NCBI RefSeq assembly: GCF_004348515.1
Contig: NZ_SMKH01000030.1
Span: forward strand, 1-41,856
DNA from: Actinomadura sp. KC345
GTDB lineage: Bacteria > Actinomycetota > Actinomycetes > Streptosporangiales > Streptosporangiaceae
Direction: 5' to 3'
Length of the DNA: 41,856 nucleotides
In this document: positions 2,640 to 35,129 of the stretch, one piece after another
How the letters are laid out: each line of letters begins with the position of its first letter
How positions within the stretch are numbered: position 1 is the first letter of the stretch
Position numbers and translations under genes: made by a program
Notes under the pieces: generated by a model
What the model was told of the DNA's origin: nothing
The model's input: the letters and a program-made list of their open reading frames with translations, nothing else
Database searches by the model: none

Positions 2640-3467
2640 TCATCGCCCGGGAGCCGGCGACTTCGGCAGGTGGTGTTCGATGAAGGTGGTGACATCGGTG
2701 AGGATCTCGTCGCGGTTCGTCTCGTTGAAGATCTCGTGGCGGGCGCCGGGGTAGAGGCGTTCGGTGAAGCGGCTGCCGCGGATCGCCTCGATGCCGGTGC
2801 GGGTGTCCTCGGGGCGGACGAGTCGGTCGGCCTCGCCGTGTGCGTAGAAGGTCGGGAGTTCGCCGAGGGGGCCGTGGGCGTCGATGGCGCGCAGGGCTGT
2901 GTCGAGGGCCCGCACGGTGGTCTTCTTGAAGGGGCCGTGCCAGATGAGCGGGTCTTCGGTGTAGGCCTTGCCGACGGCCGGGTCGCGCGAGAGCGTGGAC
3001 GTGTCGATCGACTCGTCCGGCATCTCGTCCAGCGGGAGCAGGCCGTCCACGACGTGCCAGCGGCCCAGCACCGGACCGGACAGCACCAGCGCGGCGAGGA
3101 GGCCGCCGTGCAGCTGGGCGTACCGGGTCGCGATCAGCCCGCCCATGGAGTGACCGATCATGACGACGGGCAGGCCGGGGTGGTCGCCGCGCGCCGACTC
3201 CACGACCGTGTGCAGGTCGGCCACGACGTCCTCGTAGTCCTCGATCAGCACGCGGTCGCCCGCCGAGCGGCCGTGGCCCATGTGGTCGGGCCCGCAGACG
3301 ACGGCGCCGTGCCCGACGAGGGCGTCGGCGACGTGGTCGTAGCGGCCGAGGTGCTCGCCGTAGCCGTGGACGAGGACCGCGACGTAGCGCGGCTCGCCGT
3401 CCGCCCAGATGCGGGCGGTGATCGCGCCCCGCGTCCCCGCGAACTCCCATTCCCGCGACGTGGTCAC
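2640..3467 (-). CDS. Alpha/beta hydrolase, monoacylglycerol lipase-like
   Basis: This 275-residue protein has the monoglyceride-lipase (Hydrolase_4) layout: a VLVHGYGEHLGRYDHVA oxyanion-hole segment, GPDHMGHGRSAG, the nucleophile elbow GHSMGG, an acid in YAHGEADRLV and a His in YPGARHEIFNE. It probably hydrolyses monoacylglycerols or other simple esters in the cytoplasm; no signal peptide is seen. The GTG at 3465-3467 is chosen as start because GGAGG lies about 8 nt upstream in the mRNA; the frame stays open further upstream to 3527 but without a ribosome site. It is convergent with rtcB and divergent from moaA (107-nt gap). The family is sure; the substrate is inferred. Confidence 0.88.
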   Translation of the reverse strand: MTTSREWEFAGTRGAITARIWADGEPRYVAVLVHGYGEHLGRYDHVADALVGHGAVVCGPDHMGHGRSAGDRVLIEDYEDVVADLHTVVESARGDHPGLPVVMIGHSMGGLIATRYAQLHGGLLAALVLSGPVLGRWHVVDGLLPLDEMPDESIDTSTLSRDPAVGKAYTEDPLIWHGPFKKTTVRALDTALRAIDAHGPLGELPTFYAHGEADRLVRPEDTRTGIEAIRGSRFTERLYPGARHEIFNETNRDEILTDVTTFIEHHLPKSPAPGR

Positions 3468-17854: not shown

Positions 17855-19837
17855 TCAGCAGTCGGGCTCGCAGACCCGCTGGGACAGCGCCTTGAGGAAG
17901 AAGGACTGGACCTGCCCCGGCGTCTGCGCCACGTACGCGTCGCCCTTCGTCGCCCGCGCGATCCGCCGCAGCTCGTCGGCGTCCACGCCTTCGCCGATGC
18001 CGAACATGTTGATCTGGACGGGGCGTTCGGGGTCGTACGCGCGGCGTATGCGGTCCAGCGTCTCCGCCAGCGAGGGGCCTTCCCGGTCCTCGTTCTTCCC
18101 GTCCGTCCACAGCAGGACCGAGTTCACGTACTCCGGCTTGTAGGTCCGCTTCATGTGGTCGAACGCGGCGATGGCGGTCTCGTACAGGCCGGTGCCGCCG
18201 TGCTCCTTGACCCTGGTCCGGGCGAACGCGCTCAGCACGAGCTGGCGCCGGGTGGCCGAGCCGAGCCGCTCGGCCAGCGGCCCCACGCTCACGAGCTCCC
18301 GCCAGTCCCGCTCTCCCTCCAGCTCCGTGGAGAACACCCACTGGCCGAGTTCGCTGTCGTCCGGCAGCAGGGACAGACCGTTCTGCGCCGTGCGGATCGT
18401 GGACTGCAGGCGGGTGATACCGGGCCCGATCCTCCGGTCCATGGACCCGGAGATGTCGATGATGCTCAGCATCCGGATGCTCAGCGAGAGCTGCGCCCAC
18501 TGCTGCATGGTGCGCCCGACCTCCGCCGCGGACGCCGGGGGCAGCGCCTTCGGCGCGGTCCTGCTCAGCCCGGTCCGCCCGGAGAACGCCGCCGGCGCGG
18601 CGCCGTCGGGCGTGCGGAAGCCCAGCCCGTGCACGTCGTCGCGGGTGGCGTCGCCGGCCAGCTCCCTGCGCAGCAGCCGCGCCGCGTCCAGCTCGGCCGG
18701 GTCCCCGGACAGGACGGTGACCGGGTGGTCGAGGAAGATCGTGCCCTCGGCCGGGTAGACGGCGACGGCGTTCTCCGGGGAGCGTTTCGCGTTGTGGGCG
18801 AACACCGCCTGCTCCGGCGCCAGCGCGACCGGGTGGCGTTCTCCCGCGTCCTGGCCGAACTCGGCGAACCCCGCCTTGACGGACACCGCGACCCCCTCCC
18901 GGATCGTCCGCACCACGCCGGTGAACAACGCCTGGCCCTGCGGGTCCTCGGACAGCAGCGCGCTGGCCAGCATCAGCGTGGCCATGCCGGTCGCGGTGCC
19001 GTCGGGGTCGGGGACCCGCAGCCGGAACAGCCGCGGCGGGATCGCGCTCTCCGCGGGCGCGCCATCGGCCCCCTGCTCGGCGTTCGCCGCCGTCCCGGCC
19101 GCGGCCAGGAGCTCCTTCCAGGACGGCTGCGCGGGCGCGCCGAGGTCGCGCAGCCGTGCGGCGAGCCCGCTCGGCATCGCGGGCACGACCGGGGTCGAGG
19201 CCATCCCGCCGAGGCCGGTGAGGCCCGCGGCAGCCCCGGCCCGCCCGGATCCCTCGACGAGCCTGGTCCACAGGGACGAGTCGGGGATCCAGACGTCCGG
19301 CCGCTCGGTGACGCCGGCGACGCCCTTGCCCGACAGCAGCGTCGCGACCGCGGCCGGCTCGGCGGACCGCACGCGGGCCTGGGCGCACCTGCCGGCGACG
19401 CGGTTGCGGTCGTCGTTGAAGCGTTCCGCGGCCCGGGTCACCGCGGGGGCGATGTCCGGCGCCGCGGCCACGCTGATCGTGAGCGCGTCCTCGCCGGAGC
19501 AGTCGTCGCCCGCCCAGGTGATCGCGTACGCGCCGGCGCCCGTCAGCAGGACCAGCGCGACCGCGCCGGCCAGCGGGCCGAGCAGGACGCCGCCGATCCG
19601 CCTCGGCGGCCGGGGCCCTCGGCGGCCCGGCCCGGCGGCGGCGTGCGCCGGGCCGGTGGGACGGGACGGGCGGCCGACGGCCGCGCCGGGGGCCGGGGGA
19701 CCGCCCGGCGGCCCGGACGCGGAGGAGGGCACATGGCCCGGGTAGGAGGCGCCGAGGAAGGTGTAGGGGACGTCGGGGTCGCCGGTCTCCGGCGGGGTCC
19801 GGGGTGCCCACTCGGGCACGTCGTCGTGTCCGCTCAT
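17855..19837 (-). CDS. Membrane-anchored solute-binding/VWA fusion protein
   Basis: This 660-residue protein has a Pro/Gly-rich cytoplasmic N-terminus (1-80), one transmembrane helix (about 81-107), an extracellular region like a type 2 periplasmic solute-binding protein (about 115-420, starting DALTISVAAAPDIAPAVTRAAERF), and a C-terminal von Willebrand A domain. The VWA metal-site motif D-I-S-G-S is near residues 457-461 (IIDISGSMDRR). It ends CEPDC with two cysteines close to the terminus, and has few cysteines otherwise. The ATG at 19837 has GGAG about 9 nt upstream. Proteins with this combination are known in actinomycetes; their role is unknown. Adhesion or binding of an extracellular ligand is inference. 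Confidence 0.8.
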   Translation of the reverse strand: MSGHDDVPEWAPRTPPETGDPDVPYTFLGASYPGHVPSSASGPPGGPPAPGAAVGRPSRPTGPAHAAAGPGRRGPRPPRRIGGVLLGPLAGAVALVLLTGAGAYAITWAGDDCSGEDALTISVAAAPDIAPAVTRAAERFNDDRNRVAGRCAQARVRSAEPAAVATLLSGKGVAGVTERPDVWIPDSSLWTRLVEGSGRAGAAAGLTGLGGMASTPVVPAMPSGLAARLRDLGAPAQPSWKELLAAAGTAANAEQGADGAPAESAIPPRLFRLRVPDPDGTATGMATLMLASALLSEDPQGQALFTGVVRTIREGVAVSVKAGFAEFGQDAGERHPVALAPEQAVFAHNAKRSPENAVAVYPAEGTIFLDHPVTVLSGDPAELDAARLLRRELAGDATRDDVHGLGFRTPDGAAPAAFSGRTGLSRTAPKALPPASAAEVGRTMQQWAQLSLSIRMLSIIDISGSMDRRIGPGITRLQSTIRTAQNGLSLLPDDSELGQWVFSTELEGERDWRELVSVGPLAERLGSATRRQLVLSAFARTRVKEHGGTGLYETAIAAFDHMKRTYKPEYVNSVLLWTDGKNEDREGPSLAETLDRIRRAYDPERPVQINMFGIGEGVDADELRRIARATKGDAYVAQTPGQVQSFFLKALSQRVCEPDC

Positions 19838-20329
19838 CGCCGATCTCCGTTTCCCGGGCGGGGGCGCCGGGGCGTGGCGCGCCGCTTGGTGACAGCCGCC
19901 CTGTGAGACACATAGAGGAAGTGTTTCAGCAGGATCACGTGTGATGTTCGTCTCATCGGCGTCTTCCGTCAAGTGTTCCGGCGGCTCAGGTCCGGACGCG
20001 GGCCCGGCCGCGGCGGGGCCACCCTCCGGGCGCGGGGCCGGTGTCATCGCCGAGGAGGAGTAGGCGGCGCCGCTCAGGAGTACGCAGGGCGCCCGGGAAT
20101 GGATCGGACCCCGTCCAGGTCGTTCTGACGGACCGTGCGCGGCCGGAAACGCCGTGCTCTACACGGATTCGGGGGAGAAAGGTTCGGTCCGGTCGGGTTT
20201 CGGGTCGTGGCCGGAGCAGGCCACCGCCGGGGGTTGCTTTCCCGCGCGGATGTGCTTCGGGGCGGAGCCGGCCGTCAAGGGCGGTTCATCGGCGCCCCGG
20301 GGGAGTTCCAGGAGAAGACCCCGGACATG
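19838..20329. other. Intergenic stretch without a supported gene
   Basis: About 490 bases between the VWA protein gene and the sRNA. The part near 19900-19970 is less GC-rich, contains GTGAGACACATAG and GTGTTTCAGC, and probably holds the promoter of the VWA gene. The rest has only short, unsupported frames with no ribosome sites. Nothing else could be recognised. Confidence 0.5.
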
Positions 20330-20442
20330 AAAAGCGGCGCCGGGTGGATACGGGGGCAATCCACCCGGCGCCGCATCATCGGTGTTCCGACGGGGGCCCG
20401 GAACACCGGCACGGGCGCTCCGACGGGGGACCAGAGCGCCGG
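20330..20442 (-). ncRNA. 6C-like small RNA with three C5-loop hairpins
   Basis: Read on the minus strand, two hairpins are followed by an intrinsic terminator. Hairpin A pairs 20434-20440 with 20414-20420 (GGCGCTC stem). Hairpin B pairs 20400-20408 with 20380-20388 (CGGTGTTCC stem). The terminator pairs 16 bases, 20359-20374 with 20334-20349, and is followed by TTTT at 20330-20333. Every loop contains CCCCCGT; loops A and B both read CCCCCGTC. This matches the actinobacterial 6C RNA class (two hairpins with C-runs in their loops, then a terminator), whose C-rich loops are thought to pair with G-rich mRNA sites. Here the runs are five C rather than six. The 5' end near 20442 is inferred from the promoter. 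Confidence 0.78.
20334..20374 (-). terminator. Intrinsic terminator of the 6C-like RNA
   Basis: A perfect 16-bp GC-rich stem with a 9-nt loop followed on the minus strand by TTTT (20330-20333). It is the strongest hairpin seen in the window. Confidence 0.85.
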
Positions 20443-20447
20443 TACAA

Positions 20448-20479
20448 ATCGTACACCGAAACCCCCCGCGGTTAGTCAA
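20448..20479 (-). promoter_or_regulatory. Promoter of the 6C-like RNA
   Basis: Minus strand: -35 TTGACT (20474-20479) and -10 TACGAT (20448-20453), with a long 20-nt spacer; TGTACG two bases closer would give 18. The promoter starts 8 nt after the DUF3099 stop codon, so the RNA is transcribed independently. Confidence 0.6.
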
Positions 20480-20486
20480 GAGAATG

Positions 20487-20828
20487 TCACGACCCGATTT
20501 CCGGTCGCTGTCCGGAAACCGGCTTGTGTTCCCGGTCGCCGGGATCGTCCCTCCGGTCGCCGAAGGACGCGGGGGCGGTCGGCTCCCGTCCGCCGTTCGC
20601 GAAGACCACCGCGACGTACGGCAGGATGAGCGCCCCGGCCACGAGGACGATCGCCAGCCACGCCGGAGCCCCGGCCACGGCGGCGAGTATGGCGCCCACG
20701 AAGCACACCGTCCGGACCCCCATGGACACCAGGTAGCGCCGCTGGCGGTGGCCGATGTCCTCGGACATCGGGCGGGGAGCGTCGGTGACCGTGTAGACCT
20801 CCGGCTCCCGATCGTGATTGGGCTTCAC
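20487..20828 (-). CDS. DUF3099 family membrane protein
   Basis: This 113-residue protein has two transmembrane helices (VRTVCFVGAILAAVAG and WLAIVLVAGALILPYVAVVF) after a soluble N-terminus with RQRRYLVSMGVRT, the pattern of the actinobacterial DUF3099 family. The hydrophilic C-terminus (EPTAPASFGDRRDDPGDRE) is cytoplasmic by the positive-inside rule. The start is the GTG at 20826-20828 (VKPNHDREPEVYTVT); a short GGA lies 6 nt upstream. Function unknown. It is divergent from dodecin with a 69-nt gap. Confidence 0.8.
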   Translation of the reverse strand: MKPNHDREPEVYTVTDAPRPMSEDIGHRQRRYLVSMGVRTVCFVGAILAAVAGAPAWLAIVLVAGALILPYVAVVFANGGREPTAPASFGDRRDDPGDREHKPVSGQRPEIGS

Positions 20829-20897: not shown

Positions 20898-21110
20898 ATG
20901 ACCGATCGCACGTACCGGGTGACGGAGATCGTGGGGACCTCGCCGGAGTCGCTGGAGACGGCGATCCGCAACGGCGTCAGGCGCGCCTCGCAGACCCTGC
21001 GCCACCTGGACTGGTTCGAGGTGACCGAGGTCCGCGGCCAGATAGAGGACGGCGAGGTCGCCCACATGCAGGTCACCATGAAGGTCGGCTTCCGGCTGGA
21101 GGACGCCTGA
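20898..21110 (+). CDS. Dodecin family flavin-binding protein
   Basis: This 70-residue protein matches dodecins: MTDRTYRVTEIVGTSPESLETAIRNGV-type start, a central LDWFEVTEVRG where Trp stacks on flavin, and the C-terminal strand HMQVTMKVGFRL. Dodecins form 12-subunit hollow spheres that store or buffer FMN, riboflavin or lumichrome. The ATG has GGAGG 8 nt upstream. It stands alone between divergent DUF3099 and convergent tldE. Confidence 0.93.
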   Translation: MTDRTYRVTEIVGTSPESLETAIRNGVRRASQTLRHLDWFEVTEVRGQIEDGEVAHMQVTMKVGFRLEDA

Positions 21111-34444: not shown

Positions 34445-35129
34445 CTGCCGATGAGCTTCTGGTCGGCGCCCCACAGCCCGCCCGCGAGGACTCCGGCGAG
34501 GGCGCCGGCCATCAGCACCGCGTCGTGGACGCCGCTGTTCATGCCCATCCCGCCGAGCGGGTGTTGACGTGCGCGGCGTCGCCCGCCAGCAGGACACGGC
34601 CCGCCCGGAACCGGACGGCCGCCCTCTGGTGGACCCGGTACAGGCTCGCGTGCGCGATGTCCCACCCGGTCTCGGCGACGCCGCCGAGCCGCTCGGGCAG
34701 CCGGGCCAGCTCGTCCCCGTCCGGGGTGCCTTCGGGCGTGGGGAACAGCACGCGCCAGTGGTCGGGGGTGCGCAGCAGCACCAGCCATTCGTCGGGGTCG
34801 AACACGTAGTTCACGTCGGCGATGCCGGGGAGCAGCGACGCCACGTCGGTGCCGGTGGAGGCGACGAGGAAGCGCTCGGGGTAGGTGAGGCCGGCGAACT
34901 CCACGCCGGCGCACCGCCGGACGGCCGATCCGGCGCCGTCCGCGCCGATGAGCCAGCCGCCCCGGTGCCGCGTCCCGTCCCCGGCGGTCACCTGGACGCC
35001 GCCGGCGTGCGTGAGGACGTCGCGCACGCGCTCCCCGAACCGCACGTCGCCGCCCGCCCTGCGCAGGTGCTCCACCAGCGCCGCCGTCAGGCCGACGGGC
35101 CCCGCGCCCGCGACCAGGACCCGGGTCAC
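34441..35129 (-). pseudogene. FAD-dependent aromatic-type monooxygenase, broken
   Basis: It starts at GTG 35129 (GTGA overlap with the aldehyde dehydrogenase stop) with VLVAGAGPVGLTAAL, the FAD fold of group A hydroxylases. About 80-100 residues are then missing in frame and the text resumes at VEHLRRAGGDVRFGERV, followed by WLIGADGAGSAVRR. Near 34558-34561 one C is lost from a C-run: AHVNTP-LGGMGMNSG becomes NTRSAGWA and a stop. The last part, GMGMNSGVHDAVLMAGALAG, lies in another frame to 34441. The enzyme cannot be made. Confidence 0.85.

Follow-up and report, generated by a model that had tools for sequence, protein, structure and literature searches.

A putative small RNA with C-rich hairpin loops beside the DUF3099 gene of Actinomadura and its distinction from the 6C RNA

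The locus and its predicted RNA

The window, the whole stretch of 41,856 nucleotides of Actinomadura sp. KC345 that was analysed, contains a predicted small RNA (sRNA) on the minus strand, directly downstream of a DUF3099 gene and flanked further out by a dodecin gene and a VWA protein gene (Table 1). These neighbours had been named in an earlier note made from the sequence alone, and Pfam confirmed all three; in the product of the VWA gene an SBP_bac_11 solute-binding domain precedes the VWA domain. The inferred start of the sRNA lies 46 nt past the DUF3099 stop codon, and the distance from the sRNA to the VWA gene, on the same strand, is 283 nt when the longest open reading frame is taken and 493 nt with the start used here.

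Table 1. Coordinates of the sRNA, its parts and its neighbours in the window
Feature	Position	Strand	Basis
sRNA, ~112 nt	20330..20441	minus	fold (z -8.24), covariation, conservation; transcript ends inferred
Hairpin 1, loop CCCCCGU(C) at 20423-20429	20414..20440	minus	sequence, fold, covariation
Hairpin 2, loop CCCCCGU(C) at 20390-20396	20380..20408	minus	sequence, fold, covariation
Hairpin 3, terminator-like, loop CCCCCGU at 20350-20356	20330..20374	minus	sequence, fold, covariation
-35-like TTGACT of putative sRNA promoter	20474..20479	minus	sequence; alignment
-10-like TACGAT, preceded by GGTG	20448..20453	minus	sequence; alignment
DUF3099 gene, directly upstream of the sRNA	20487..20828	minus	PF11298, E 3.8e-27 (Pfam)
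Dodecin gene, frequent neighbour of the sRNA	20898..21110	plus	PF07311, E 5.3e-29 (Pfam)
SBP_bac_11/VWA protein gene, downstream of the sRNA	17855..19837	minus	Pfam; longest ORF starts at 20047

Three consecutive hairpins are predicted on the minus strand, with a minimum free energy of -81.7 kcal/mol, compared to a mean of -50.9 for shuffled sequences, of which none in 200 folded equally well; the fold of the plus strand is weaker (z -5.56). As the earlier note had proposed, CCCCCGT (ACGGGGG on the plus strand) sits in each of the three loops and the last hairpin is terminator-like. The minimum free energy structure does close one or two base pairs within loops 1 and 3. The motif is followed by C in loops 1 and 2 and by A in loop 3, so that two of the three exposed motifs read CCCCCGUC, again as noted before. 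The stem of hairpin 3, the most widely conserved element of the sRNA, runs from 20374 to 20334 and is followed by UUUU at 20333-20330. The 5' end was placed from the -10 box and the 3' end from the U run, and the resulting length fits the RNA of about 110 nt that had been anticipated.

Upstream of the hairpins, CTTGAC is invariant across 79 aligned sequences and the sixth base of the -35-like box varies; GGTGTA is likewise invariant and the CGAT that completes the -10-like box is variable. The gap of 20 nt between TTGACT and TACGAT is long for a sigma-70 promoter. Since a consensus scan of the sRNA stretch, where the U run counts only four, flagged neither a sigma-70 promoter nor a terminator, the calls of both elements rest on comparison and fold.

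Conservation, covariation and spread across the class Actinomycetes

A 181-nt probe matched all 65 Actinomadura genomes, 11 of which (the own genome included) are 100% identical over the 181 nt, and the stretch is therefore not a product of chance. All 200 genomes of the host's bacterial family match at E<=10; for 195 of them E is at most 3.1e-17, and the weakest five have E 0.04-0.54. Among 37 sequences of the genus, taken from the better-matching loci of the 65 genomes, mean pairwise identity is 99.0% in the RNA, 97.4% in the promoter, 91.6% in the DUF3099 tail and 51.7% in the 29 nt past the terminator; for all 79 sequences the corresponding values are 93.6, 81.5, 70.8 and 34.9%. One contig (G050:C1) holds two copies near its ends, at 34661-34842 and 9517810-9517991, probably the overlapping ends of an unclosed assembly.

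Covariation was followed in alignment A1 (48 sequences; one of the 49 distinct sequences, L055, was excluded from it and from the model R1 described below), in which 12 of 40 stem pairs have changed on both sides. Across families (29 sequences) 98.1% of the cells pair and 13 of 26 pairs have changed on both sides, with a covariation score of 0.313 compared to 0.164 for shuffled alignments; none of 500 shuffles reached it and slid controls stayed at or below 0.122. The loops are near-fixed, CCCCCG occurring three times in all 48 rows of A1 and CCCCCGU three times in 47. Exceptions within the family are L102, two of whose loops contain only four C, and L080, L093 and L098, each without one of the three U after CCCCCG. 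Judged from these alignments, the putative C-loop sRNA near DUF3099 is conserved as an RNA.

Covariance model R1, built from 48 sequences (the host family and one Streptosporangiales MAG), matched 36 of 246 genomes of the class at E<=0.01, 22 in the host family and 14 outside it. In eight of the outside loci (L103-L110) the surroundings were examined: DUF3099 lies upstream on the same strand in seven, and the eighth (L104) has dodecin and TldE and no DUF3099. Model R2 comprises hairpin 2 and the terminator and was built from 29 sequences, among them the window RNA and five of L103-L110; in L104, L105 and L108 the terminator follows no C-loop hairpin, and these three were left out of alignment A2 and of R2 for that reason. 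At E<=0.05, R2 matches were obtained in 107 of the 246 class genomes; at E<=0.01 the number falls to 98. Outside the host family, 48 of the 85 R2-matching genomes were examined (8 + 40 loci, spanning the whole score range), and the 37 left out include eight weak matches (E 0.019-0.044). DUF3099 is present on the same strand in 40 of the 48 loci, ending -9 to 111 nt before the R2 match; gene context formed no part of the R2 search. Dodecin is found in seven of the eight loci without DUF3099; neither gene accompanies the remaining match, L180 (33 bits), which is probably spurious. A search of 159 genomes from the wider phylum, a set that itself includes members of the class, gave five matches at E<=0.01, every one in the own genome or in another genome of the class Actinomycetes. 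The window RNA itself shows the features of the R2 family, namely DUF3099 upstream, a terminator-like C-loop hairpin and a promoter motif.

By reading of the translations, the gene order at L142 and L145 (family f18) is tyrS, DUF3099, the RNA and then a convergent moaA, which is the gene order of S. coelicolor, and these loci presumably belong to Streptomyces. SCO1821 is moaA according to the accessible part of PMC4021200.

Across loci the terminator hairpin is near-constant; its loop carries five or six C, except for four in L157 and seven in L107, and continues with GUG or GUA. It is preceded by one further C-loop hairpin, by two (host family) or by hairpins without C. When the last 115 nt of the 48 outside-family loci were folded, 24 showed two C5 loops, 23 a single one and 1 no such loop. 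The three C loops that had been regarded as special are usual in the host family, where 55 of 56 distinct loci outside the genus have CCCCCG three times. The constant part of the RNA is the terminator hairpin with its C loop, and the further C-loop hairpins vary.

A promoter signature accompanies the RNA in both groups. TTGAC-N17..22-TGTA lies upstream of it in all 56 distinct host-family loci outside the genus (drawn from 60 loci), compared to 14 of 8674 background windows, among which true sites are possible. Outside the family, TGNNAT[AG][AC]T is found in 36 of the 48 loci, 30-61 nt upstream of the point where the terminator hairpin approximately begins, compared to 3 of 2423 background windows. 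Because the same loci had prompted the choice of both patterns, the evidence lies in the contrast with the background and not in the choice. By this signature, the putative start of the sRNA would be expected near the TGNNATACT or TGTACGAT box.

Relation to 6C and other C-loop RNAs

The locus had been described as a 6C-like sRNA. The likeness holds, in that 6C/B11 (RF01066) too is a short actinobacterial RNA with C-rich-loop hairpins of which the last is a terminator, and action via C-loop pairing might be expected of both, by analogy with what the accessible parts of PMC12395582 and PMC10470900 report for B11. Membership of 6C does not hold: when the 6C covariance model was run as had been suggested, RF01066 was unmatched in the window at its gathering score (47 bits) and was not among the 33 Rfam matches at E up to 10. 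Compared to the 6C consensus, the window RNA has CCCCCGU loops instead of C6, other stems, a DUF3099 locus and up to three C loops. We rejected 6C identity both on this layout, three C5-loop hairpins and not two with six or more C (the relative L110 has C5 and C6), and on the unmatched model together with the occurrence of 6C at separate loci of the same genomes. A C-rich terminator loop, which had been put forward as distinguishing, turned out to be shared, for that of M. marinum B11 is also C-rich and serves as seed, according to the part of PMC12395582 available.

The reading of the sRNA as a 6C that has relocated, its loops having drifted from C6 to C5 on the way, draws on the common layout with a terminator-like last C-loop hairpin and on weak R2 matches to 3 of 30 true 6C loci (30.0, 25.1 and 21.9 bits). 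Against it stand the absence of any RF01066 match in the window at E up to 10, stems and loop flanks that are unlike, and above all the distribution of the two RNAs. 6C is found over its cut-off at another place in 60 of the 65 Actinomadura congeners (e.g. in G015, with 6C at 6426650 and the sRNA at 3437642). The own genome has only a 26-bit 6C match, elsewhere than the sRNA, and the five genomes without 6C over the cut-off (the own genome, G004, G045, G046 and G048) are draft assemblies that run to 420-670 contigs. Of the 246 genomes in the class sample, 134 have 6C, 98 of them over its cut-off. Both RNAs are present in 80 (R2 at E<=0.05, 6C at E<=0.01; 74 with R2 at 0.01), 6C alone in 54, the C-loop sRNA alone in 27 and neither in 85, and in all 80 shared genomes the two lie at different places, as judged by comparing the lists by eye. 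This co-occurrence at separate loci refutes the identity, and we regard a relocated 6C as highly improbable; a distant common descent of the two families is possible. On the sequence evidence, the putative sRNA resembles 6C in style and is a different RNA, with a family of its own, which also explains why its locus differs from the 6C locus, as the earlier note had observed. At L111 (family f4), 6C and the Ms1 RNA lie about 1.1 kb apart (1501-1576 and 2708-3013).

The window, L103-L110 and 20 further loci were all without a match to any Rfam 15 family at its gathering score. The highest-scoring sub-threshold match was Scr3202 (RF02833), which aligned with hairpin 2 and the terminator and shares the C-rich loops (29.4 bits, E 0.012). 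It differs in a shorter first loop and some broken pairs and, as it missed its gathering score of 52 bits, membership was rejected. BjrC80 and ncS035, with lower E-values than Scr3202, stayed far under their cut-offs and were likewise discarded. Conserved Streptomyces sRNAs with a C-rich loop, scr5583 and scr1434, have been seen by northern blot according to the accessible part of PMC3765725; they are named after other flanking genes, and are set apart here by name and not by sequence. C-loop sRNAs are thus already known as a kind, and the DUF3099-associated one is a separate family matched by no Rfam 15 entry.

We found no description of it in the open-access literature, although supplementary tables may already list it. 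The names scr1820, scr1821, SCO1820 and DUF3099 are unmentioned there, scr1819 and SCO1821 occur in unrelated uses only, and an sRNA with moaA or tyrS yielded nothing that looked relevant; for sRNAs of Actinomadura or Streptosporangium, the Ms1 RNA is covered and the C-loop sRNA was not found. The accessible parts of the sRNA papers on S. lividans, S. clavuligerus and S. ambofaciens do not name the DUF3099-associated locus. In the part available of the S. clavuligerus paper, only two of its core conserved intergenic regions are given as previously known, and the C-loop sRNA locus may therefore be among the others.

Proposed mode of action and alternative readings

The reading that we favour, as probable though well short of certain, is that of an independently transcribed, trans-acting sRNA of the class Actinomycetes, of a family beside 6C, which would use its C loops to pair with G-rich sequences close to ribosome-binding sites. 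The comparisons establish RNA-level structure, conservation, the promoter signature, synteny and the distinction from 6C; transcription, pairing and repression are expected by analogy. Transcription would begin at a promoter of the sRNA itself, immediately 3' of DUF3099, and stop at the terminator hairpin, giving about 112 nt with three hairpins in the host family and usually a shorter RNA with one or two C-loop hairpins elsewhere. Its loops would expose CCCCCGU as seeds for ACGGGGG-type mRNA sites, most likely at or near ribosome-binding sites, where pairing would block translation and lay the mRNA open to decay, as for mycobacterial B11/6C. In M. marinum, B11 uses its C-rich terminator loop to pair with G tracks next to ribosome-binding sites, lowering both translation and mRNA (PMC12395582), and in M. 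abscessus either of two C loops of B11 suffices for repression (PMC10470900), as far as the accessible parts of these papers go. The constant terminator loop of the sRNA family would fit such a use as seed.

The search for sites near start codons that had been proposed was carried out in samples and gave none that is conserved. In 400-kb samples of three genomes, with crude gene starts and each sample a small part of its genome, no conserved ACGGGGG was found in the leaders of 116, 86 and 83 ortholog pairs, and single leaders held no excess (8, 3 and 3, compared to means of 6.7, 3.7 and 3.3 over all 42 letter orders). In four whole genomes ACGGGGGCA-N0-12-ATG occurred at 28 sites, compared to 16 for the reversed pattern, and the reading frames of at least 60 aa behind these sites included no related pair. 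The window has 9 matches to ACGGGGG, three of them the RNA itself, where 18.6 are expected. Avoidance of ACGGGGG was considered and rejected, because other letter orders with an unbroken G5 are equally rare in the three 400-kb samples.

These searches bear on a fair if unlikely rival to the trans-acting reading, a protein-binding or sponge RNA in which the repeated loops dock an RNA-binding protein, comparable to CsrB, whose GGA loops bind CsrA. Such a role would suit the near-fixed motif in all three loops of A1 as well as the lack of conserved mRNA targets in the searches. Outside the family, where 24 of the 48 loci fold with two C5 loops, 23 with a single one and 1 without any, such loops are nevertheless few for a sponge, and the C-loop RNAs that have been studied pair with mRNA, by the available parts of PMC10470900 and PMC12395582. 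The sRNA could also be no more than the tail of the DUF3099 transcript, serving as terminator and barrier to decay without acting in trans, as its same-strand position behind DUF3099 at 40 of the 48 loci would allow. This we consider improbable, for the promoter signature precedes the first hairpin, and the loops are near-fixed while the stems covary, which is needless for a plain terminator; furthermore, a similar terminator-like hairpin lies beside dodecin in seven loci without DUF3099, although the promoter motif is absent from all seven. Least credible of all is a role as leader or attenuator for the gene downstream. The VWA protein gene, next in line in the window, does follow on the same strand; in 20 host-family loci outside the genus (L061-L080), however, no VWA match was present within about 4 kb on either side, and at L142 and L145 the RNA is followed by the convergent moaA instead. 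The VWA gene is thus no fixed neighbour of the sRNA outside Actinomadura.

More tentatively, and with slightly less than even confidence, the trans-acting sRNA may be a core regulator of the class, vertically inherited beside DUF3099, that together with 6C would form two parallel C-loop regulators with different seeds (for ACGGGGG- and G6-type targets, respectively). The seed would then have originated in the terminator loop, and the hairpins upstream of it would be copies gained later. To our knowledge, post-transcriptional regulators of antibiotic-producing actinomycetes are poorly known. A candidate sRNA at a fixed locus, one amenable to deletion in laboratory Streptomyces, matched in 107 of the 246 sampled class genomes and identical over 181 nt in 11 Actinomadura, offers a handle on C-loop regulation, bears on why many actinomycete genomes keep two C-loop RNAs and exposes a gap in Rfam.

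Finally, four DUF3099-less loci of family f14 (L104:1501-1616, L169:1977-2056, L173:2019-2099 and L176:1990-2055) have the terminator hairpin beside dodecin, with CUGCCCCCGUGG in its loop, and carry upstream of it ACGGGGG or ACGGGGGG, the complement of the C loop, which L170 of the same family does not. This complement could possibly act as a self-pairing switch or as a built-in decoy.
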